NCBI RefSeq assembly: GCF_000024345.1
Contig: NC_013729.1
Coordinates: 62,001 to 126,000, forward strand
DNA: 64,000 nt
Source of the DNA: Kribbella flavida DSM 17836
Lineage (GTDB): Bacteria; Actinomycetota; Actinomycetes; Propionibacteriales; Kribbellaceae
Direction: 5' to 3'
This document shows, one piece after another, positions 37,214 to 46,002 of the stretch. Both the position numbers and the translations under genes were made by a program. The notes under the pieces were generated by a model. It was not told the DNA's origin, searched no databases, and was given only the letters and a program-made list of their open reading frames with translations. Positions within the stretch are counted from its first letter, which is position 1; each line of letters opens with the position of its first letter.

Positions 37214-38875
37214 TCACCGCTGCACGTCCACGAAAACCGGGTTGGTGTAGAGCCAGGTGTCCAGCCACGGGTCGCCGTCGTTCACCGGGTGCTGGATCGG
37301 TCCGGCCGGGTCGATGGCGCGGCCCAGGTAGCCCGGACCGTTGCGCCGGCCGTCGCTGCCGCGCAGGCGCAGGTAGTGGCTCCGCTCCGCCCGGCCGAGC
37401 GGAATCCGCAGCGTGTAGGTGCCGGTCTTCCGCCGTACGTCGAGCTGCTCGACCACTCGGGTGTCCGGAGCCTTCCAGCTGTCCCGGTCCGCGGCAGGGC
37501 CGGTCACCAGGCCGCGGATGACATCCAGGTGGGCCAGTCGCGGCAGGATCCCGTGGAAGTTCGGCCGGGTCGCGCTGGTGACGGTGACGCGCAGCTCCAG
37601 CCGCTCGCCGCGCCGCACCTTCAGCCGCCCGCCCAGCGTGACGCCGCGCTGCCGCGATCCGGCCGTCGTGAGCCGGACGTCCAGGCCGTCGACCAGTTGG
37701 CCGTGGTCCACCCAGACGCGCCCGGCGCGCAGTCCGGCCATCACGTCCAGGTAGGAGTAGCGCGTCACGCCGACATGCGTACGGCTGAACTGACCCGGCC
37801 AGAAGTCGCTGCCGGCCTGCGGTACGCCGCTGTCGGTCGGCGCGGGCTTCCAGCCCAGTGAGTCGAAGTTCTGGCCGGGCGGGAACTCGCCGTCCTTCCA
37901 GGTGTCCCAGATGGTCCGGTGGTTGTCGCTGTTGGAGGTGATCGAGAACAGCCGGCCCTCGGCGAGCAGGGAGTCCCAGAGCCCGCCGACGGTCGCGGTG
38001 GCCCAGTCGAAGCCGCCGTACGTGCGGTAGGCGTCCGCAGGGTAGCCCGGATGGCTGCCAGCGCCCGGTGCATTCACGTACTCGCCGCGCTGCGCGTTGG
38101 TGGCGCCGCGGTGTGCGACCCAGGCCGGCTCGGCGTCGCCCTGCGCACCGGGAGCGCCTTCCATGCCGATGCAGATCCCGGTGTCCCGCCAGGCGCGCAG
38201 CTCGTGCGGCGAGTCGATGCCGAGGCGCAGTGGGTGGTTCGCGAGGACCAGCACGTCGTCGACGTAGCCGCTGCGCTTCTGCTCCGCGAGCCAGCGCAGC
38301 GCTTGCACGGCGTACTGCTCGTTCTCCGCGGTGTTGCCGGAGCGGTTGGTGAGCTTGCCGTCGTACTGGCGCTCGAAGGCCTGCAGCAGCGCGACGTCGT
38401 TGGGGCCTGGCGCGACCAGCACCGTGCCGTGCTCGGCCGCCGGGATGTACCACTCCAGGCCCTGGAAGATCAGCATCCGCGGGTTCTCGGCCCGGGCATT
38501 GACCACCTCGGCGTGCTCGGCCACGGCTCCCTTGTCGGCGTGACCGACGTTGCTGTGCTCGGTGAACGCCATCCAGTCCAGCCCGAACTGTGCGCCCCGC
38601 TGCGCCAACTGCCCGAACCCGTACTTCGCGTCGTGGCTGTAGCGGCTGTGCACATGGTGGTCGCCCACCAGCCACACCAACTCCGGATCACCCGAGGACG
38701 CCGTACCGGTCGCTGCCGCCTCGGACGTGCCGCCCGCGACCGCCCCCGCCGCCAATCCGGCTCCCAGCAGCCCCGCGCCCCGCAGCATCCCTCGCCGCGA
38801 CACTCCCTGCGCATCCAGTGCCTGCTCAGGCACTCCCGGATCCGCCCACTCCGGCAACTGCTGCCCACTCGTCAT
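37214..38875 (-). CDS. CehA/McbA-family PHP-type metallohydrolase, Tat-exported
   Basis: 553 residues. An N-terminal twin-arginine signal (SRRGMLRGAGLLGAGLAAGA) leads to a PHP-domain hydrolase with DHHVHSRYSHD, FTEHSNVGH and SNSDNHRTIWDTWKDG motifs that would bind a metal cluster. The C-terminal part is beta-rich. CehA/McbA members hydrolyse carbamate or phosphate esters extracellularly; the substrate here is unknown. ATG at 38875 (MTSGQQ) follows AAGGAGG by nine bases; an upstream GTG at 38884 overlaps the ribosome-binding site. Confidence 0.88.
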   Translation of the reverse strand: MTSGQQLPEWADPGVPEQALDAQGVSRRGMLRGAGLLGAGLAAGAVAGGTSEAAATGTASSGDPELVWLVGDHHVHSRYSHDAKYGFGQLAQRGAQFGLDWMAFTEHSNVGHADKGAVAEHAEVVNARAENPRMLIFQGLEWYIPAAEHGTVLVAPGPNDVALLQAFERQYDGKLTNRSGNTAENEQYAVQALRWLAEQKRSGYVDDVLVLANHPLRLGIDSPHELRAWRDTGICIGMEGAPGAQGDAEPAWVAHRGATNAQRGEYVNAPGAGSHPGYPADAYRTYGGFDWATATVGGLWDSLLAEGRLFSITSNSDNHRTIWDTWKDGEFPPGQNFDSLGWKPAPTDSGVPQAGSDFWPGQFSRTHVGVTRYSYLDVMAGLRAGRVWVDHGQLVDGLDVRLTTAGSRQRGVTLGGRLKVRRGERLELRVTVTSATRPNFHGILPRLAHLDVIRGLVTGPAADRDSWKAPDTRVVEQLDVRRKTGTYTLRIPLGRAERSHYLRLRGSDGRRNGPGYLGRAIDPAGPIQHPVNDGDPWLDTWLYTNPVFVDVQR

Positions 38876-39004
38876 CCGTGCCACCCTCCTTGTGCTGACA
38901 AGCCACTCTCAGGGACCGCGGTGACGCGGACATGTGCACCAGGTGAACGACGATTGGATAAGCCGACCGTTGTTATATGACGATGAAATGACTATGGTGC
39001 GCCG

Positions 39005-39343
39005 ATGTCCTCCTCCGAGATGCGTGAGCCGACGTTCTTCGTGCTGGCCGCGCTGGCCGACGGCCGCAAGCACGGCTACGCGGTGATCGCCGAAGTGAAA
39101 ACGTTGTCCGACGGCCGCCTCCGGCTGCGGCCGGGCACGTTGTACGCCGCGCTCGACCGACTGAGCGAGCAGGGCCTGGTCCGGGCCGCGGGAGAGGAGG
39201 TCGTCGACGGCCGGCACCGCCGGTACTACGAGATGACGCCGGCCGGCGCGGACACGTTGGCCGCCGAGGCGGCACGGCTGCAGGCGAACGCGGAACAGGC
39301 GTTCCGCCGGTTGCGGCTGCGCCCGGCGGGTGGCGCGGCGTGA
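39005..39343 (+). CDS. PadR-family transcriptional regulator
   Basis: 112 residues with the PadR winged helix: PTFFVLAALADGRKHGYAVIAEVKTLSDGRLRLRPGTLYAALDRLSEQGLV, then GRHRRYYEMTPAGADTL, and a short C-terminal dimerisation helix. Acts as a repressor of membrane or transport genes. The stop overlaps the next ORF in GTGA. The upstream region carries an ATGAC direct repeat that could be its operator. Usually such regulators sit with a membrane-protein partner; here the partner appears truncated. Confidence 0.92.
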   Translation: MSSSEMREPTFFVLAALADGRKHGYAVIAEVKTLSDGRLRLRPGTLYAALDRLSEQGLVRAAGEEVVDGRHRRYYEMTPAGADTLAAEAARLQANAEQAFRRLRLRPAGGAA

Positions 39344-39591
39344 GCAAACTGGAGCGCGACTACCGCACCGCCCTGCTCTGCTACCCGCGCTGGTGGCGGG
39401 AGGCCCGCGGCGAGGAGGCCCTCGGCGTACTGCTGGACAGCGCTGAGGCTGCCGGCCGCTACCGGGCTGATCCGCGTGATCTGCTGGACCTGGCGGTCCA
39501 TGGCGTCCTGGCCCGCGACGGTGGCCTTGCTGGCCGGAGCGCTGGCGGCTGGATCAGCTGTGCGGGCCGGTCGGCGTCCACTCGTCGGTGA
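39340..39591 (+). pseudogene. Truncated partner of the PadR regulator (83 aa)
   Basis: 83-residue ORF coupled by GTGA overlap to the PadR gene. It begins SKLERDYRTALLCYPRWWREARGEEALGVLLDSAE, which resembles the N-terminus of the roughly 200-300 residue membrane proteins that usually follow PadR genes in actinobacteria. After about residue 60 the sequence turns low-complexity (GGLAGRSAGGWISCAGRSASTRR), and the frame ends inside the opposite-strand GNAT gene (overlap 38 nt). No membrane segment is left. Truncation is my interpretation; the family cannot be confirmed here. Confidence 0.55.
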
Positions 39592-40102
39592 GCAGCGAGT
39601 AGAGCAGTGAGTCGCGCCAGGCGTTGTTGGTGAAGACGTGGTGGCGGATGCGGCCCTCGTAGCTGAAGCCGAGGCGGTCGACGACGGCGATCGAGGCCTG
39701 GTTGTCCGGGCCGATCGCGGCGCTGACCCGGTGCAGGGTCAGGTCGGTGAAGGCCAGCCGGAGCATTGTCCGGGCGGCGTCGGTGGCGTAGCCGTGCCCC
39801 CAGTACCGGTGGGCGATCGCGTAGCCGAGGTGGGCGGCCTGGACGCCGGTCGGGCCGAGCCGCGCGAAGCCGATCATCCGGTCGTCGTCCAGGCGGGTGA
39901 CCGCGAGCAGGTAGTCGGGCCGGTCGGCGCGGGCCGAGCGGTCGACGGCGGCACGCAGCGAGCGCTGGGCGCCGTCCCGGGTGTGGCTGTCGAAGGACAG
40001 CCAGCTGGTCACCCGGTTGTCACCGGTGATCGCCAGGTAGTCGTCGAGGTCGTCGAGCCGGACCTCGCGCAGCCTGCAGCGCTCACCGGTGAGTGGGTCC
40101 AT
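39554..40102 (-). CDS. GNAT-family N-acetyltransferase (RimJ/RimL-like)
   Basis: 182 residues. GNAT fold with CRLREVRLDDLDDYLAI, LGYAIAHRYWGHGYATDAARTMLRLAF (acetyl-CoA-binding motif A) and NQASIAVVDRLGFSYEGRIRHHV (motif B). This is the RimJ/RimL ribosomal protein or small-molecule acetyltransferase type; substrate unknown. ATG shares one base with the TGA of the upstream regulator gene, so they are cotranscribed. Confidence 0.9.
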   Translation of the reverse strand: MDPLTGERCRLREVRLDDLDDYLAITGDNRVTSWLSFDSHTRDGAQRSLRAAVDRSARADRPDYLLAVTRLDDDRMIGFARLGPTGVQAAHLGYAIAHRYWGHGYATDAARTMLRLAFTDLTLHRVSAAIGPDNQASIAVVDRLGFSYEGRIRHHVFTNNAWRDSLLYSLLTDEWTPTGPHS

Positions 40103-41397
40103 CAGTGCGGGAACGACTGCATCGGGGTCCGGGTGAAGGCCTCGATCTCCTCCTGCAGCTCGCGGGCGTCGTCGGCGTGGCCGGACTGCCGCAGCGCCTG
40201 GTGGACCCGGCGGGCCGAGTGCACCACGCCGTTGATCCGGCGCTCGGCCGGCAGGCCCAGAACCGGGGCGATGGCGTCCGCGGCGCCGTCCAGCTCGCCG
40301 CTGGCGATCCGGGTGATCGCCATCGCGGCGTGGCTGCCGGCGGCGTCACCGAAGGCCCACTCGGGGTGCGACTGGTCGGTGTAGGCGTCGACTGCCTGGT
40401 TGGAGTAGCGCTCGGCGGTCTCCATCTCACCGGGCAGCCAGGCGAGCGCGTCGGCCGCGTAGTACAGCTGCCGGTTGCGGCCGAAGGTGCACAGGCCGCC
40501 CATCTCGTCCAGCTCGTCGTTGCGGACCGAGTTCCACGCGTTCTCGGCGCGCTCGAGCGCGGCGCGGGTGGCGTCGGGGTTGCCGAGGGCGGCCCAGGCG
40601 CGGGCCTCGCTGACCGGCAGCCAGACGCTGGTGGTGCTGTTGGCCTGCTCGGCGTAGCCGGCGCCCAGCTGGGCGTACCGGACGGAGTCGTGCGGGTTGC
40701 CGGCCCAGTACGAGACCAGGGACTGCAGGCCGCGGACCCAGGCGCGCAGGCCGTGGTGGTCGGCGTTGTCGGCGCAGAGGAACGCCGTCCGCGCCTGGGT
40801 CAGCGCGGCGTGCGGGTTGCCGAGGTCGTGCGACGCCTTGGCCAGCAGACCGCCGGTGACGCCGCCCAGGAAGTACAGCTGCCGCAGGTGTTCCGGACGC
40901 TGCCGGCTCTCCAGCAGTGCGAAGACCAGGTCCTGCGTCTCGACCAGCTGGCCGAGGATCTCCGGCAGCGGGCGCTGCGGGTAGGCCTTCGCGACGTGCT
41001 TGACGTCGTCGTACACCTGTTCCATGGCCTCGCTCCCGAGACCGGTCTGGGCCGCGAGGGCGAATGCCCGCGCACGGCTGGCAGCCATGTCGAGTACCTC
41101 CATCTCATTACCTGTCGTGATCCGTCCACTCGCGGCAGGTACCGGCACCACCTGGGCAGCCTGTTCGGGGACGTACGGGGCGAGGAGCTCCTCGACCGGC
41201 TTGCCGAACATGCGTTGCAGGGTGCGCCGGGTCTGAGGAGTGGTCCCTGCGCGCTCGCCCGATGCGAGGCGCCGCAGGTGCCGCTCGGTGATGGTTCCAC
41301 CCAGCTCGACGAACTCGGCGACGATTTCGGAGTAGGTCTGGTTCCGGCGCTGGATCAGGTGCGCCAGGACCGTTCTCGGCGCATACCTACCCGCCAT
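40102..41397 (-). CDS. Transcriptional regulator with N-terminal HTH and TPR-like C-terminus
   Basis: 431 residues. The N-terminal XRE-like helix-turn-helix (about 10-70: TVLAHLIQRRNQTYSEIVAEF...TERHLRRLASGE) is followed by an all-helical body (about 95-425) with repeated A-x-x-x-A-type helix pairs (ALTQARTAFLCADNADHHGLRAWVRGLQSLVSYWAGN), as in TPR-containing regulators of Streptomyces and relatives. ATG 41397 follows GGAGGAACG. Divergent from a 63-aa ORF; the shared promoter region carries four AGGTCC iterons with 11-bp spacing (41479-41517), likely the binding site of this protein. Confidence 0.85.
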   Translation of the reverse strand: MAGRYAPRTVLAHLIQRRNQTYSEIVAEFVELGGTITERHLRRLASGERAGTTPQTRRTLQRMFGKPVEELLAPYVPEQAAQVVPVPAASGRITTGNEMEVLDMAASRARAFALAAQTGLGSEAMEQVYDDVKHVAKAYPQRPLPEILGQLVETQDLVFALLESRQRPEHLRQLYFLGGVTGGLLAKASHDLGNPHAALTQARTAFLCADNADHHGLRAWVRGLQSLVSYWAGNPHDSVRYAQLGAGYAEQANSTTSVWLPVSEARAWAALGNPDATRAALERAENAWNSVRNDELDEMGGLCTFGRNRQLYYAADALAWLPGEMETAERYSNQAVDAYTDQSHPEWAFGDAAGSHAAMAITRIASGELDGAADAIAPVLGLPAERRINGVVHSARRVHQALRQSGHADDARELQEEIEAFTRTPMQSFPH

Positions 41398-41478
41398 CGT
41401 TCCTCCCGTTCACGTCAGATCAGACGTTGTCTCGACTCGTGCCCCACGACAAGGTGCAGACCCCCTGATGTCCGCCAG

Positions 41479-41517
41479 AGGTCCTGAAGAGGTCCGGCAA
41501 AGGTCCGCCTCAGGTCC
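41479..41517. promoter_or_regulatory. Four AGGTCC direct repeats with exact 11-bp period
   Basis: AGGTCC occurs at 41479, 41490, 41501 and 41512, each exactly 11 bp apart, or one helical turn on the same DNA face. Flanking bases vary. The array lies in the 215-bp divergent region between the TPR regulator and the 63-aa ORF, 82 bp from the regulator start. Best explanation: cooperative operator for the adjacent regulator. Confidence 0.75.
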
Positions 41518-41612
41518 TAGAGCGGTCACGGTCGGCTTGTGCACCATTACTGCCATGACAACCAGTAAGTCCAACTGGTTGCAAGGCCTGAGAGTTACGG
41601 GGTGAGCGAGTA

Positions 41613-41804
41613 GTGACTATCGCGGAGATGACGTCGAGGCAGCACCGCCGCCGGGTGCGGGTCTGGTTCGGCGAGCACGTGATCGCGCAGTACGTCGCGG
41701 AGGCACCGCTGGCGGCGCGGTACGAGCAGGCGATGCGGAGGCGGTTCGCCGGTCTCCGGGTCACCAACGACCTCCTCGGGCCGCAGGACAGCACGGACAA
41801 CTGA
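41613..41804 (+). CDS. Small Arg-rich protein, unknown function
   Basis: 63 residues starting TIAEMTSRQHRRRVRVWFGEH, with about ten Arg and two basic patches (HRRRVRVW and MRRRFAGLRV), no membrane helix and no Cys. GTG at 41613 follows a GGGGTGAG purine stretch. It is divergent from the TPR regulator and directly followed by the hairpin array, which starts at the stop codon. The composition suits nucleic-acid binding; I do not recognise a family. The arrangement of small basic ORF plus anti-SD hairpins recalls the ccaF1-CcsR locus of Rhodobacter, though this is not a DUF1127 sequence. Confidence 0.65.
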   Translation: MTIAEMTSRQHRRRVRVWFGEHVIAQYVAEAPLAARYEQAMRRRFAGLRVTNDLLGPQDSTDN

Positions 41805-42126
41805 GCTCGCCCGGGTCCTCCTCAGACCCGAGCGGCTGCGCCTGGAGTCTCCTCACGTCCAGGAGCAGCATCCGGAAAGGTCCGGGACCCTCCTCAGTCC
41901 CCGGACACCACCCAGGTGTGGTCCGAAGCACTCCTCAGCTTCGGACCACACCGCCCACAGCCCGGCTGGGCTGGCGGCTGGATCCCTGTGTCGCCGCCGC
42001 CCAGCCGTTCCAACCCACCTCCTGGCCGACACCTCGGGCCGGGCGGGGTCAGTGCCCCACGCCGGAGATCGGGCGGATCGTACGGCGGGACACGTGATGG
42101 CTCGTGACACCTCACCACGAGCCATC
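41805..42126 (+). ncRNA. Tandem hairpin array with CTCCTCA loops (candidate small RNAs)
   Basis: At least six hairpins follow each other. H1 41805-41833 (CGGGTC/GACCCG), loop CTCCTCA. H2 41835-41869 (CCTGGA/TCCAGG plus GCTGC/GCAGC), loop GTCTCCTCACG. H3 41880-41906 (GTCCGGGAC/GTCCCCGGAC, one bulge), loop CCTCCTCA. H4 41915-41952, perfect 15 bp, loop ACTCCTCA. H5 41963-42007, 15 bp with one bulge, loop TGGATCCCTGTGTC. H6 42096-42126, perfect 11 bp (GATGGCTCGTG/CACGAGCCATC), loop ACACCTCAC, which could also pair with TGAGGTG at 42130-42136. Stems differ but the first four loops share CTCCTCA, complementary to TGAGGAG, an SD-like sequence. A terminator with T-tract follows on the plus strand. 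Confidence 0.6.
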
Positions 42127-42140
42127 CCCTGAGGTGGCCG

Positions 42141-42189
42141 GCTCCGTTGTGTGACCGCCGCGCCTGGGCGGTCACACAACGGAGCTTTT
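42141..42189 (+). terminator. Perfect 19-bp intrinsic terminator with TTTT tail
   Basis: GCTCCGTTGTGTGACCGCC (42141-42159), 7-nt loop, and its exact complement at 42167-42185, followed by TTTT at 42186-42189. The T-tract is on the plus strand only, which indicates rightward transcription of the 63-aa ORF and hairpin array. It also separates them from the convergent marR gene. Confidence 0.93.
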
Positions 42190-42194
42190 GTGCT

Positions 42195-42584
42195 TCACGA
42201 GCGCGCGTTGACCGCCATCCGCCGCAGCACGTCCACCGCCATGGCGTACTCCGTCGCGTCGATTCCGGCCGTCAACCGTCGCCGCTGCGCGGTCATCCGC
42301 TCGGTCAGCCGGTCGAGTGCCGCCCTGCCCGCCGGCGTGAGCTGCTCGCCGTCCAGCCAGCCGCGGCCGGCCAGCGGATCGGTCACAGCCGCGAGCTCCG
42401 CCGGGTCGCCGGCGAGGAACGGCGCCAGCGCCACTGCGATCGGCTGCTCCTCGGAGGCGGCGTTGAGCGCCTGCCACTGCCGCCGACTCAGGCCTTCGGT
42501 GGCCAGAACGGAGTCGAGGGACGCCTCGATGAGGCGGTCCAGCTCCTTCAGCCACCAGCCGATAGGCTTGTTGTCGTCCGACAT
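42195..42584 (-). CDS. MarR-like regulator (first of a divergent pair)
   Basis: About 129 residues: SDDNKPIGWWLKELDRLIEASLDSVLATEGLSRRQWQALNAASEEQPIAVALAPFL and a C-terminal helical part RLTERMTAQRRRLTAGIDATEYAMAVDVLRRMA. Weak MarR-type winged-helix pattern (LTPAGRAALDRLTERM). The start could be ATG 42584, 42590 or 42602; the shortest was chosen because the longer forms read through the CATATAC repeats. Divergent to the second marR-like gene, with shared operator candidates. Confidence 0.75.
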   Translation of the reverse strand: MSDDNKPIGWWLKELDRLIEASLDSVLATEGLSRRQWQALNAASEEQPIAVALAPFLAGDPAELAAVTDPLAGRGWLDGEQLTPAGRAALDRLTERMTAQRRRLTAGIDATEYAMAVDVLRRMAVNARS

Positions 42585-42609
42585 ATACATGTCAACGAGC
42601 ATATACCTG
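42582..42609. promoter_or_regulatory. Direct repeat CATATAC(A/C)TG in divergent promoter
   Basis: Two 10-bp copies, CATATACATG at 42582 and CATATACCTG at 42600, 18 bp apart. The sequence is AT-rich against a GC-rich background. They lie between the two divergent MarR-like genes and may be operators of one or both. Confidence 0.55.
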
Positions 42610-42619
42610 AGGGGGCGGC

Positions 42620-43075
42620 GTGCCCAGTGCCGATCCGGCCGCGGCGGTGGAGACCGCGATGGTCGCCGTGCGCCGGCGGCAGACCCGGCGGGCCTTCGCG
42701 GCGGAGACCGGTGGTGACGCGAGCCAGCAGGTCCTCGACGCGATCGAGGCGGCGGGTCGCACGCCGATCGGCGTGAACGGCATCGCCGAGGCGCTCGGCG
42801 TGGACCAGCCACGGGCGAGCAAGCTGGTCGCGGCCGTGGTGTCGGCCGGGCTGGTCCGGCGGGAAGCGGACCAGCAGGACGGCCGGCGGACCCACCTGGT
42901 CCTGACCGCGGCGGGGCGGGACCGGCTGACCGAGGTCCACGCCTTTCGGCGGCAGCGGTTCGCTGCGGCGATGCGCGACTGGTCCGACGTGGAGCGCGCC
43001 ACCTTCGCGACGTTGCTGACCCGTTTCGTGTCCGCGCTCGATCAGCGGCCCGCCGGCGGGGAGGTCCGGCCCTGA
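42620..43075 (+). CDS. MarR-family transcriptional regulator (second of the pair)
   Basis: 151 residues with a clear winged helix: ASQQVLDAIEAAGRTPIGVNGIAEALGVDQPRASKLVAAVVSAGLVRREADQQDGRRTHLVLTAAGRDRL. GTG at 42620 is preceded by GAGGGGG. Binds DNA as a dimer and usually responds to phenolic or oxidative ligands; ligand and target not visible. The 43076-43204 gap downstream contains no ORF, only repeated GTCGGCCGG strings. Confidence 0.88.
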   Translation: MPSADPAAAVETAMVAVRRRQTRRAFAAETGGDASQQVLDAIEAAGRTPIGVNGIAEALGVDQPRASKLVAAVVSAGLVRREADQQDGRRTHLVLTAAGRDRLTEVHAFRRQRFAAAMRDWSDVERATFATLLTRFVSALDQRPAGGEVRP

Positions 43076-43204
43076 GGTGCTCCGCCGGAGAAACCGCAGG
43101 TCAGCGCGGCGCAGGTCCGCTTCTGGTCTGGTGTCGGGCCGGGGTGGTCCGTTCGCGTCGGCCGGTCGGCGGTCGAGGTCGGCCGGAGCGTCGGCCGCCG
43201 TTCC

Positions 43205-44218
43205 TCAGCCGCCTCGGCGGGCCTGGTAGACCGCGAACGGAGCGTCCGGGCGTACGCCGGCAGCGCCGTCGACCAGGCCCTCGGCGGTGAGCTCGCCCGC
43301 GTAGGTCATGCCGAGCCGTTCCATCACCGCCCGCGAGGCGTGGTTGTGCCGCTCGGTGAACGCGACGACCGCACGGGCTCCCAGCTGCTCGAACGCGAAG
43401 TCCAGTCCCGCCGCGCCGATCTCCGTCGCGTACCCCCGGCCGCGGGCGGACGCCACCAAGGCCCAGCCCAGTTCCAGCCGGTCAGCCACCCAGTCCGGGC
43501 CGGCCAGAGCGGCGAGCTGCTCGGTCACGGCGGCGTTCGCGCCCAGCCGCGACAAACCGCCCCGCCCGACGAGCGCCCCGCCCGACCGCTCGTACGCCAT
43601 CCACTTGCTCACCCCGTCGCGCTCCCACGCCGCTTGCATCTCGGTTGCGCGCCGTACGGACTGCTCCGCGGACCACGTCCCGGCGTACCACTCGGCGACC
43701 CAGGGATCCGCGAACAGCCGCTCCAGGTCCGCCGCATGTCCGGCCAGGACCTCACCCGGGCCCCGGACCGGCTCCAGCCGCAACCGCTCGGTCAGCCGGA
43801 TCCGCACCGCGTGCGCCACGATGTCCAGCAGCCGCCGGTCGCCGTCGGTCCGCCCGACCATCAGCAGCTCGACGTCGTCCGGCCCGACCCAGGCCCCGGC
43901 GTCGTGCTTGCCCTGCTCCAGCCGCGGCCGCTCCAGGTCCCCGTCGACCGCGACCAGGAAGTCCAGCTCCCGGCGGACCCGCCCCGCGTACTCCCACTCC
44001 CAGTCCGCCACCGGCGCCAGCACCTCGCGCACGGTCCAGCCGGTCTCCTCCTCCACCTCCCGCGCCAGCGCCTGCTCCGGCGTCTCACCAGCCTCCAGAT
44101 GCCCGCCGACGATGTCCCAGATTCCCGGCAGCAACCGCCGCTCCGCCGTACGCCGGTGCACGTAGACCCGCTGCCGCGCGTCCCGGATCAACGCCCCGAC
44201 ACAATCCACCTCACGCAT
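43205..44218 (-). CDS. Fusion of Nudix hydrolase and GNAT acetyltransferase
   Basis: 337 residues with two domains. The N-terminal Nudix domain (about 1-130) has the box GGHLEAGETPEQALAREVEEETGW, which fits G-x5-E-x7-REUxEExGU, and hydrolyses nucleoside-diphosphate-linked compounds. The C-terminal GNAT domain (about 145-337) shows ADPWVAEWYAGTW, ELGWALVASARGRGYATEIGAAGLDFAF and NHASRAVMERLGMTY. The fusion suggests successive steps or housekeeping of a modified metabolite. Substrate not apparent. Confidence 0.88.
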   Translation of the reverse strand: MREVDCVGALIRDARQRVYVHRRTAERRLLPGIWDIVGGHLEAGETPEQALAREVEEETGWTVREVLAPVADWEWEYAGRVRRELDFLVAVDGDLERPRLEQGKHDAGAWVGPDDVELLMVGRTDGDRRLLDIVAHAVRIRLTERLRLEPVRGPGEVLAGHAADLERLFADPWVAEWYAGTWSAEQSVRRATEMQAAWERDGVSKWMAYERSGGALVGRGGLSRLGANAAVTEQLAALAGPDWVADRLELGWALVASARGRGYATEIGAAGLDFAFEQLGARAVVAFTERHNHASRAVMERLGMTYAGELTAEGLVDGAAGVRPDAPFAVYQARRGG

Positions 44219-44297
44219 CCCGCCAACCTAGACGCGTTGTTCGAAGTCGTCCCCACCGACCTGATCCGGCCCGCGCTGCTTCAGGGTTGCGCCTCGT

Positions 44298-45200
44298 CTA
44301 CTCCGGCGCGGTGAACTTCTCCGAGGCCCACGTCTCGAAGGTCGTGGTCGGGATGCCGAGGGCCGCGGCGAGCGCCGGGCGCGCGGGATTCTGGTACGTG
44401 TTCAGCCACTGCTGATTGTCGATGAGCTCCGGCACCATGCCTCGCGCCTTCGCCTCCTCCGCTGCGACGACCTCCACGCGCGCGGGCGCTCCCACTGCGG
44501 TCAGCCTCGCCGCCAACTCCGGCAGCGTGCGGATGTCGCCGGCGAGATCGAGCGCGACTCCGTTGAAGCGGACCGGGTCCGCGAACGCCGCGGCCGCCGC
44601 CGTACCGATGTCCTGAACCGCGACCACTGGCAGCCGGGTCTGCGGGCTGACGACCGTCACGATCGCCTCACCGGTCATCCCCTCGAACCAGATCGACGGC
44701 CGGAGCAGGTTCTCCATGAAAAACGCCGGACGCAGCTCGGTCCACGACTCGAACCCACTCTCCGGGAGAAGCTGCCCGACCCGCGCCTTGCTGCCCCAGT
44801 AGTGCGTGCTCCACCCTTCCGTGCGACCCACCGCTGCCTGCCGGACGTAGTCACCGACACCTGCCACCGACGTGTGCACGTACTGCGCGACGCCGGCTTC
44901 CCGCGCGGCCGCGACCAGGTTCTCGCCCTGGCTCCGCTCGCTGTCGGAGCCGAGATCGGCGAGGTCGGGGGTCTGCACCGAGAAGACCGCTCGGGCACCG
45001 CGGAGCGCCGATCCCAACGACGTGGGATCGGTCAGGTCCGCCGTGACCAGCTCAGCTCCCGCCTGCGCGATCGCCTTCGCCGCCGCGGTTTCCGGTCGCC
45101 GCACCAACGCCCGTACCGGTACGCCGGCCGCCAGCAACCGCCGCGCCACCGCCCCACCCTGCTGCCCGGTCGCGCCGGTCACCACCACTACGTCACTCAT
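44298..45200 (-). CDS. NmrA/HSCARG-type NAD(P)-binding protein
   Basis: 300 residues. Rossmann fold starting DVVVVTGATGQQGGAVARRLLAAGVPVRALVRRPE, then VFSVQTPDLADLG. Atypical short-chain dehydrogenase/NmrA-like family; many are redox sensors or NADPH-dependent reductases. Conserved active-site Tyr is not evident. Divergent from the TetR regulator; two GGGG-CCCC palindromes lie between, suggesting repression by that regulator. Confidence 0.87.
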   Translation of the reverse strand: MSDVVVVTGATGQQGGAVARRLLAAGVPVRALVRRPETAAAKAIAQAGAELVTADLTDPTSLGSALRGARAVFSVQTPDLADLGSDSERSQGENLVAAAREAGVAQYVHTSVAGVGDYVRQAAVGRTEGWSTHYWGSKARVGQLLPESGFESWTELRPAFFMENLLRPSIWFEGMTGEAIVTVVSPQTRLPVVAVQDIGTAAAAAFADPVRFNGVALDLAGDIRTLPELAARLTAVGAPARVEVVAAEEAKARGMVPELIDNQQWLNTYQNPARPALAAALGIPTTTFETWASEKFTAPE

Positions 45201-45220
45201 CCGAAGCTCCGATCGCCAGT

Positions 45221-45241
45221 AACTGGGGGGTGCCCCCAGTT
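45221..45241. promoter_or_regulatory. TetR operator candidate 1
   Basis: AACTGGGGG-GTG-CCCCCAGTT: perfect 9-bp arms around a 3-bp centre, 21 bp upstream of the NmrA-like start and about 53 bp from the TetR start. Confidence 0.65.
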
Positions 45242-45256
45242 ATCTGCTTGCTACGA

Positions 45257-45277
45257 TATGGGGGACCACCCCAGATA
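45257..45277. promoter_or_regulatory. TetR operator candidate 2
   Basis: TATGGGG-GACCA-CCCCAGATA region: TGGGG/CCCCA arms with AT-rich flanks, centred 36 bp from operator 1 and just upstream of the TetR gene (45294). Confidence 0.55.
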
Positions 45278-45293
45278 GCAATCGGGAGAGCTG

Positions 45294-45905
45294 ATGACGC
45301 CGGACAGGCGGCTGCGCGCGGACGCCCGGCGCAGCCGGGAGCAGATTCTGCGGGCCGCCGAGGTGGCCTTCGCCCGGGACGGATTCGAGGCGTCTCTGGA
45401 AGCGATCGCCAAGGACGCCGGCGTCGGATCGGCGACTCTGCACCGTCACTTCCGCTCCCGGCGGCAACTGGTCGAAGCGGTCTTCCACGAGCGCACCGAA
45501 GCAGTCATCGGCGAAGCGACCCAGCTCGCGACGACCAATCCACCGGGGCCTGCCCTGTACTACTGGCTGCGCTCCGTCCTCCGGGTCACCGTCGAGAACC
45601 GTGGTCTGGCCGTCGCTCTCCTGCCTCTTCCCGAGGGCACTCCGACGGACTCGAGCTGTCACAGCAGGTTGACGGACGTTGCGGAGGGCCTGATCGAGGC
45701 GGCCCGCGCTACTGGCGACATCCGCGCCGACGTCACCGCGGCCGACGTACTGTCGCTGGTCAACGCGATCGCACTCCTGGCTGAGCAGCCGGGCTGCACG
45801 CACCTCGACGCGGAGCGGCTGCTCGGTCTGACCATCACCGGCATCGGCCCGGAGGCCTGCGCCTCGGGCAAGGATGCGTCGCCGCGCCACTCGCTCCCAG
45901 GCTGA
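45294..45905 (+). CDS. TetR-family transcriptional regulator
   Basis: 203 residues. N-terminal HTH: RLRADARRSREQILRAAEVAFARDGFEASLEAIAKDAGVGSATLHRHFRSRRQLVEAVF. Ligand domain of the TetR_C type follows, with VLSLVNAIALLAEQPG near the C-terminus. ATG at 45294 follows GGGAG. Likely represses the divergent NmrA-like gene and itself through the two palindromes. The end overlaps a possible longer frame of the next gene. Confidence 0.92.
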   Translation: MTPDRRLRADARRSREQILRAAEVAFARDGFEASLEAIAKDAGVGSATLHRHFRSRRQLVEAVFHERTEAVIGEATQLATTNPPGPALYYWLRSVLRVTVENRGLAVALLPLPEGTPTDSSCHSRLTDVAEGLIEAARATGDIRADVTAADVLSLVNAIALLAEQPGCTHLDAERLLGLTITGIGPEACASGKDASPRHSLPG

Positions 45906-46002
45906 CCCGCGCGACGCCTGCCGCGGCTCGCTGCAGTCCGTGCTGTACCCGCCCGCGCCAAGCGACGTGAGGGAGAACCGCTCAGGTGACAGGGTTGGGG
46001 TT

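Follow-up and report, generated by a model that had tools for sequence, protein, structure and literature searches.

A tandem hairpin array with a constant UCCUCA loop behind a small-protein gene in Kribbella, a candidate Shine-Dalgarno-masking RNA

The alpha-r14 RNAs of Rhizobiales (NfeR1/SmelA075, RF02344), known as 'cuckoo' RNAs, are 123-nt alphaproteobacterial transcripts of three hairpins, in which divergent stems carry an identical, ultraconserved anti-Shine-Dalgarno (anti-SD) loop (PMC10746234; PMC3927594). NfeR1 is reported to act independently of Hfq and with redundant loops, and the two targets tested both encode periplasmic components of ABC transporters (PMC10746234). A related arrangement, ccaF1-CcsR1-4 (CIN1) of Rhodobacter, unites a small-protein gene, four sRNAs and a Rho-independent terminator in one unit. 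Actinobacterial sRNAs with C-rich loops have also been described. The mycobacterial 6C/B11 sRNA has two such loops, which complement a guanosine run, and reporter repression persisted when either loop was mutated, while scr5583 and scr1434 of Streptomyces have one loop each, with no repeated motif in the available portions of their descriptions.

The locus described here lies in the actinomycete Kribbella flavida and resembles alpha-r14 in its divergent stems and identical anti-SD-like loop, and 6C/B11, scr5583 and scr1434 in being actinobacterial, but it is a longer series of hairpins than alpha-r14 and its loops repeat UCCUCA. The window, by which we mean the whole 64,000-nucleotide stretch that was analysed, corresponds to positions 62001-126000 of the K. 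flavida genome, a single contig of 7,579,488 bases; the type strain has 7,086 protein genes (PMC3035274). The family comprises 38 genomes taken as Kribbella, K. flavida among them (37 others). Pairing was scored in alignment A4 (H1-H5; 38 rows, 37 of them distinct, two being identical) and alignment A5 (H5b, H6 and terminator; 37 rows, genome G001, without the terminator hairpin, being excluded). The features, in window coordinates, are:

40102-41397, minus strand: gene for an NsdA-family TPR-like regulator, transcribed away from the array unit (matches NCBIfam NF053720 at 92 bits; cut-off 75)
41469-41534, no strand assigned: six 11-bp direct repeats, core (T/G)GTC(C/A), a putative multi-site operator for an activator
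41545-41551, plus strand: CATTACT, possible -10 element, invariant in the 38-genome alignment
41560-41580, plus strand: inverted repeat AACCAGT-N7-ACTGGTT, a 5' hairpin or operator, arms kept in 38/38
41599-41606, plus strand: GGGGTGAG, putative ribosome-binding region of the 63-aa ORF, kept in 38/38
41613-41804, plus strand: gene for the 63-aa small protein, GTG start, directly upstream of the array
41808-41834, plus strand: hairpin H1, CTCCTCA at 41818-41824; 4 of 7 pairs changed on both sides
41835-41869, plus strand: hairpin H2, CTCCTCA at 41849-41855; 3 of 9 pairs changed on both sides
41880-41906, plus strand: hairpin H3, loop CCTCCTCA at 41889-41896; 3 of 9 pairs changed on both sides
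41915-41952, plus strand: hairpin H4, loop ACTCCTCA at 41930-41937; 7 of 15 pairs changed on both sides, 100% of cells paired
41963-42007, plus strand: hairpin H5, with a different conserved top, CCCTG; 100% of cells paired
42016-42023, plus strand: CACCTCCT, identical to the core of the 16S anti-SD tail; kept in 33 of 37 rows
42021-42043, plus strand: hairpin H5b, loop GACACCTCG; 98.1% of cells paired, 1 of 7 pairs changed on both sides
42096-42126, plus strand: hairpin H6, loop ACACCTCAC; 9 of 11 pairs changed on both sides
42140-42189, plus strand: intrinsic terminator, 20-pair stem and T run; 10 of 20 pairs changed on both sides, 90.9% of cells paired

Conservation, structure, strand and gene order of this unit are direct observations. 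Its parts follow one another as repeats, inverted repeat, small-protein gene, hairpins and terminator, all within 41469-42189. In each of the 17 relatives examined (of the 37 others), the NsdA-family neighbour is divergent, at about the same distance and 91-98% identical, and the flank downstream of the array is variable. CTCCTCA occurs on the plus strand at 41818, 41849, 41890 and 41931, each time topping a different hairpin. Window-wide the heptamer is not enriched (10 matches, 7.9 expected), but four lie within 130 nt; when the window was simulated 100 times with a first-order Markov model, the best cluster held one heptamer in 91 runs and two in 9. For a 396-nt stretch the predicted folding energy is -233.6 kcal/mol (z = -9.2 relative to 100 shuffled versions, all of them less stable). 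Positions, clustering and fold confirm the four CTCCTCA hairpins of the preliminary description, which was also right that H5 does not share their motif (its top is CCCTG) and that the array closes with a 19-bp terminator and T-tract, a stem of 19 Watson-Crick pairs and an outer G-T pair followed by four T. Its list of hairpins H1-H6 stands, except that H5b (42021-42043) had been overlooked.

A pattern of three CTCCTCA boxes matched 30 of the 38 family genomes, as well as unrelated repeats, whereas its reversed control matched 2 of 38; the matches L023 and L029 and two places in K. flavida's own genome are examples of such repeats, and L023 and L029 were excluded from alignment A1. With a covariance model of H1-H5 (R1, built from 28 loci), one strong match was found in each of the 38 genomes (E 1.4e-54 to 3.8e-37), and further matches within the family were weak and mostly the H4 palindrome read on the opposite strand. 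All 152 hairpins H1-H4 of the 38 genomes contain UCCUCA. Because 30 genomes had been chosen by the heptamer, the cleanest figure comes from the eight that the heptamer pattern missed, in which UCCUCA is present four times each (32/32) and the base preceding it in H3 is not C. The conserved loop heptamer proposed earlier therefore holds for UCCUCA (152/152) but not for CTCCTCA as a whole, which is kept in 38, 38, 30 and 35 of 38 genomes in H1 to H4. Likewise, CCTCCT is present in H3, as had been pointed out, but is not confined to it, since H1 has it too, with the first C paired in the model. When the folds of the 38 arrays were predicted, at least five of the six motif bases fell in a hairpin loop for 146 of the 152 motifs, and the other six motifs have four to five bases unpaired. 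Mean column identity over the 38 genomes is 0.996 in loops, 0.919 in stems and 0.697 in linkers.

The stems themselves covary. In A4, 98.1% of the cells in the H1-H5 helices are paired, and 18 pairs and 62 cells have changed on both sides. Shuffled alignments give 5.7 pairs and 11.6 +/- 3.5 cells, and none of 500 attained the observed values, though these counts ignore phylogeny and are inflated by kinship; when the helices were slid, a control that retains relatedness, pairing dropped to 32-46%. Of the five shuffle measures, one (further pair types) was equalled or exceeded in 28 of 500 shuffles. In H5, 12 of the 17 pairs are invariant and one has changed on both sides. For H5b, H6 and the terminator (A5), 92.9% of cells are paired, and 20 pairs and 99 cells have changed on both sides (30.1 +/- 6.3 cells in shuffles, reached by 0 of 500). 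Stem covariation in relatives and loop conservation between genomes, the two checks that the preliminary description had proposed and that could be run on genomes, thus both came out in its favour, and its claim of a constant loop under selection on differing stems is supported by the 152 UCCUCA loops together with the covarying stems. The H1-H5 helices contain 87 G-U and 11 A-C cells, and because the two would swap on the opposite strand, the plus-strand RNA is the selected molecule. Inverted repeats alone do not prove an RNA, and the array could in principle be a feature of the DNA (a mobile repeat, or DNA hairpins bound by protein) or the product of chance; but with the 87 to 11 ratio, a single strong match per genome in 38/38, a terminator and a fixed position after the ORF, we regard this as scarcely credible.

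Model R1 was run on 293 genomes belonging to the order, and 41 matched at E<=0.01, of which 38 are the family; the other three (G182, G170 and G252) are weak, lack UCCUCA and have hairpins unlike those of the array, and were rejected on reading. Beyond the family, the order's 255 other genomes gave no accepted array under stricter filters and a one-genus model, which distant analogues with different stems would escape. Rfam 15 gave no family at gathering score in window positions 38000-46000, 6C/B11 being absent from the matches. The RF02344 model aligns with H2-H4 and their loops across 221 nt, scoring 24.2 bits (E 0.0068) where 58.8 is the gathering threshold, and the sub-threshold matches to alpha-r14, Scr3202 and sX13 were set aside as shared architecture or chance, not membership. 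Among the entries listed, open-licence literature on Kribbella sRNAs, cuckoo RNA and C-rich or anti-SD loops in Actinobacteria or Streptomyces contained, in the portions available, no description of the locus.

The ORF upstream of the array was described beforehand as a 63-aa ORF, and this is borne out by a highly similar, basic protein of 59-64 aa in all 38 genomes, with codon positions 1, 2 and 3 conserved at 0.93, 0.96 and 0.81, the third being the freest. Neither Pfam (E<=0.001) nor NCBIfam (E<=1) has a family that it matches, and the PDB has no relative by sequence (E<=1) or by fold (E<=0.001). AlphaFold models it as beta-beta-alpha-beta (mean pLDDT 80), and Foldseek with this model returned no significant match (best E 0.66). 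The protein belongs to a family of small basic proteins (L001-L006, L117-L175; RRVRVWFGxHxIADY...RRFAGLRVTN), which is likewise unmatched in Pfam, NCBIfam and the PDB; K. flavida has six members (the 63-aa protein and five paralogues) and relatives have many. The named loci with its relatives are from Kribbella, except for three from Nocardioides, one from Microlunatus, one from a Propionibacteriales bin, and four in a record titled Streptomyces sp. SID13031; of these four, one bears an array like that of Kribbella. Of 80 relatives kept, the 22 orthologues (L096-L116, L118) each have three to four strict hairpins, whereas the other 58 have a single weak hairpin in three cases (L117, L156, L165) and none in 55, so that the idea of small-protein paralogues as general array carriers was rejected. 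Among the five paralogues in K. flavida, one (L006) has two downstream hairpins with CTCCTCCTCAA, at 1810-1881 (G000:C1, about 2006864-2006935), the second of them terminator-like; CTCCTCCTCAA is the exact complement of TTGAGGAGGAG, the ribosome site of another paralogue, L003.

Many identical loops on unlike stems are also the architecture of a sponge of the CsrB type, which titrates an RNA-binding protein, and here the adjoining product, small, basic and conserved in 38/38 genomes, could be the protein that the UCCUCA loops bind. A parallel exists in Rhodobacter CcaF1, a small RNA-binding protein from a comparable operon. However, the loops match the Shine-Dalgarno code, as pairing predicts, the predicted fold of the 63-aa protein (pLDDT 80) has no significant match among solved structures, and its paralogues are mostly without such hairpins. 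We therefore think titration of a protein rather unlikely.

The region upstream of the ORF, which the preliminary description left out of its feature list, is conserved, positions 41540-41607 being almost invariant (column identity 0.974 in 38 genomes). The 11-bp repeats are spaced at exactly 11 bp, at 41470, 41481, 41492, 41503, 41514 and 41525, with a mean column identity of 0.945 over the 38 genomes; the strict repeat pattern gives 6 or 7 consecutive units in 21 genomes and 4 or 5 in 17, and an alignment gap of 11 columns in G031 corresponds to one unit. They stand upstream of both the array unit and the divergent NsdA-family gene and are likely an activator operator. Control by an OmpR/PhoB-family or SARP-family regulator would fit such repeats. 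A consensus promoter scan of 41300-42700 found no match. The inverted repeat differs in only two genomes of the 38-genome alignment, always inside its 7-nt middle. Since these changes would alter the residues of a 16-aa leader peptide read from the ATG at 41555, such a peptide was rejected as the reason for conservation.

The eight bases of CACCTCCT overlap the start of H5b. The loop GACACCTCG is found in 36 of 37 rows, H6 has CCTCACC in 38/38 genomes, extended to ACACCTCACC in 26 of 37 rows, and in K. flavida GACACCTC is common to the H5b and H6 loops. An alternative is an element acting in cis, a 3'-UTR that stabilises its mRNA or controls translation of the 63-aa protein, for example by pairing of the H6 CCUCACC with GGGGUGAG. 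The array is directly 3' of the ORF, both stretches are kept in 38/38, and six pairs are possible when read from the sequence. Yet two invariant stretches make covariation uninformative, SD and anti-SD-like stretches pair by nature, and mere stability needs no invariant UCCUCA in four loops; between H1-H4 and the unit's own ribosome site, comparison by eye gave no conserved complement. We judge an action in cis unlikely.

We consider it fairly probable, going by sequence, that the array is a trans-acting sRNA, or a cluster of them, made from the small-protein unit, whose loops would block SD-type sites. The precedent of alpha-r14 and NfeR1 leads us to infer such SD-masking in trans (PMC10746234; PMC3927594). 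The plus-strand unit would begin near 41555, encode the 63-aa basic protein and end in seven hairpins and the terminator. Four hairpins would offer UCCUCA and two more CACCUC, all resembling the anti-Shine-Dalgarno tail of 16S rRNA. The 3' region, intact or cut into hairpin units, would then work as an sRNA in trans, its loops base-pairing first with mRNA Shine-Dalgarno sites of the UGAGGA(G) type so that translation is blocked; repeated loops may be redundant or may multiply the dose, and the operator of 11-bp repeats would render the unit conditional. Start of transcription, processing, pairing in trans, repression and the class of regulator are all parts of this model that we infer. The earlier suggestion of a translation-inhibiting sRNA or a sponge holds as to selection on the loops and the CcsR analogy, while for the putative inhibition at SD sites the evidence on targets is mixed. 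That the array instead soaks up another sRNA bearing UGAGGA would follow the same repeated-loop logic, but the motif is of the ordinary Shine-Dalgarno type and we know of no partner RNA with UGAGGA, which makes this sponge very improbable.

For targets, the pattern CTGAGGAG(N4-11)ATG has 42 sites in the K. flavida genome (19 for the reversed-pattern control), compared with 16 CAGAGGAG sites and 15 GAAAGGAG sites, the last counted and not classified by Pfam. Pfam scans excluded frames of <60 aa, namely three of the 42 CTGAGGAG frames (L179, L199, L222) and one of the 16 CAGAGGAG frames (L210). The remaining 39 CTGAGGAG frames include, besides other proteins, five SBP_bac_1 proteins, two permeases, one ABC ATPase, one fucosidase and one GH43 enzyme, against one ABC ATPase and no SBP_bac_1 in the 15 CAGAGGAG frames. 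As the genome has 58 SBP_bac_1 proteins, the five at 42 sites correspond to a hypergeometric p of 2e-5 on 7,086 genes, for a link spotted post hoc in one Kribbella genome among 59 families; multiplying by 59 gives about 0.001. In three genomes that lack the array, all from a single other genus and with 129 SBP_bac_1 genes, none of 88 CTGAGGAG sites (89 minus one overlapping duplicate row of G045) precedes such a gene (Fisher 0.003), a favourable control because these genomes belong to the family with the lowest CTGAGGAG:CAGAGGAG ratio. TGAGGA precedes 6 of 58 SBP_bac_1 genes and 3 of 215 sampled genes (p = 0.004) with a crude gene caller, the six being one too low, since for L258 the start assigned automatically was not the CTGAGGAG one.

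Other comparisons temper this picture. By hand sums, CTGAGGAG:CAGAGGAG is 788:352 (2.24) in 17 Kribbella genomes and 377:210 (1.80) in 17 array-less genomes, with 80:30, 126:55 and 171:125 in the outgroup families; because the first two equal or exceed Kribbella, there is no genus-wide SD shift, and a Kribbella-specific SD lexicon was rejected, as start sites show no special preference for CTGAGGAG. The CTGAGGAG 8-mer is also produced when an SD shares bases with a TGA stop. The binding-protein gene at 133,521 has TGAGGAG, and its orthologue was found in two of the relatives' 20 stretches (20-40 kb past the array), with the site absent in one of the two; no target pairing with covariation was found. 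In favour of pairing, isolated-duplex calculations, which leave accessibility aside, give -11 to -20 kcal/mol for the array loops on five candidate start regions, against -8.6 to -11.5 kcal/mol for the 16S tail. Sequence matches suggest mRNAs of sugar ABC-transporter binding proteins as the leading candidate targets, and the transporter regulon is a lead rather than a result. Separately, a 44-bp tandem repeat starting CTCCTCAGTCCAGGCC occurs at L010, L013 and L015 (G000:C1, about 651330, 5863779 and 5950065) with no array-type hairpins; the start-site-like GGGAGGCCCCATG lies inside it at L010 and L015, L013 having been read in part.

Set against the described systems, the array has the cuckoo-type architecture of several hairpins with an identical anti-SD-like loop on divergent stems, and, as in CIN1, a terminator closes the protein-sRNA unit (hairpin in 37/38 genomes). 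The analogy drawn earlier to CcsR/cuckoo RNAs after a small-protein gene finds support in the literature (PMC10253847, PMC10746234, PMC3927594). ABC-transporter binding components, the tested targets in alpha-r14, are the best candidates in Kribbella. Differences are equally clear. The loop is CCUCCUCCC in alpha-r14 and (C)UCCUCA in Kribbella (152/152 UCCUCA), and CcaF1 of CIN1 is a DUF1127 protein whereas the 63-aa protein matches no Pfam family; CIN1 has RNase E processing into separate sRNAs and an RpoH promoter, neither of which is described for the Kribbella array. We class the array as a variant of the cuckoo/alpha-r14/CcsR design, because it would work alike but departs from that design in loop motif, model score and DUF1127 content. 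It is probably convergent with the alphaproteobacterial RNAs.

A broader reading, possible but doubtful, is that Kribbella independently evolved an inducible cuckoo-like operon, in which a small, basic, RNA-binding protein and six anti-SD hairpins (four UCCUCA and two CACCUC), transcribed together under an OmpR/PhoB- or SARP-like 11-bp operator, would set the translation of sugar ABC transporters, presumably without Hfq. Hfq is not known from actinobacteria, and no RNAs with so many anti-SD loops are known to us from that phylum. If the reading is true, the operon would have reached its solution there by convergence. Repeated anti-SD loops on unrelated stems beside a small-protein gene seem to have separate origins in alphaproteobacteria and in an actinobacterial genus. 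Were this shown, multi-valent SD-masking RNAs would be a recurring design that escapes family searches, as with the lack of any Rfam gathering score here, and actinomycetes would gain a defined RNA with a testable target rule, UGAGGA at the ribosome site.
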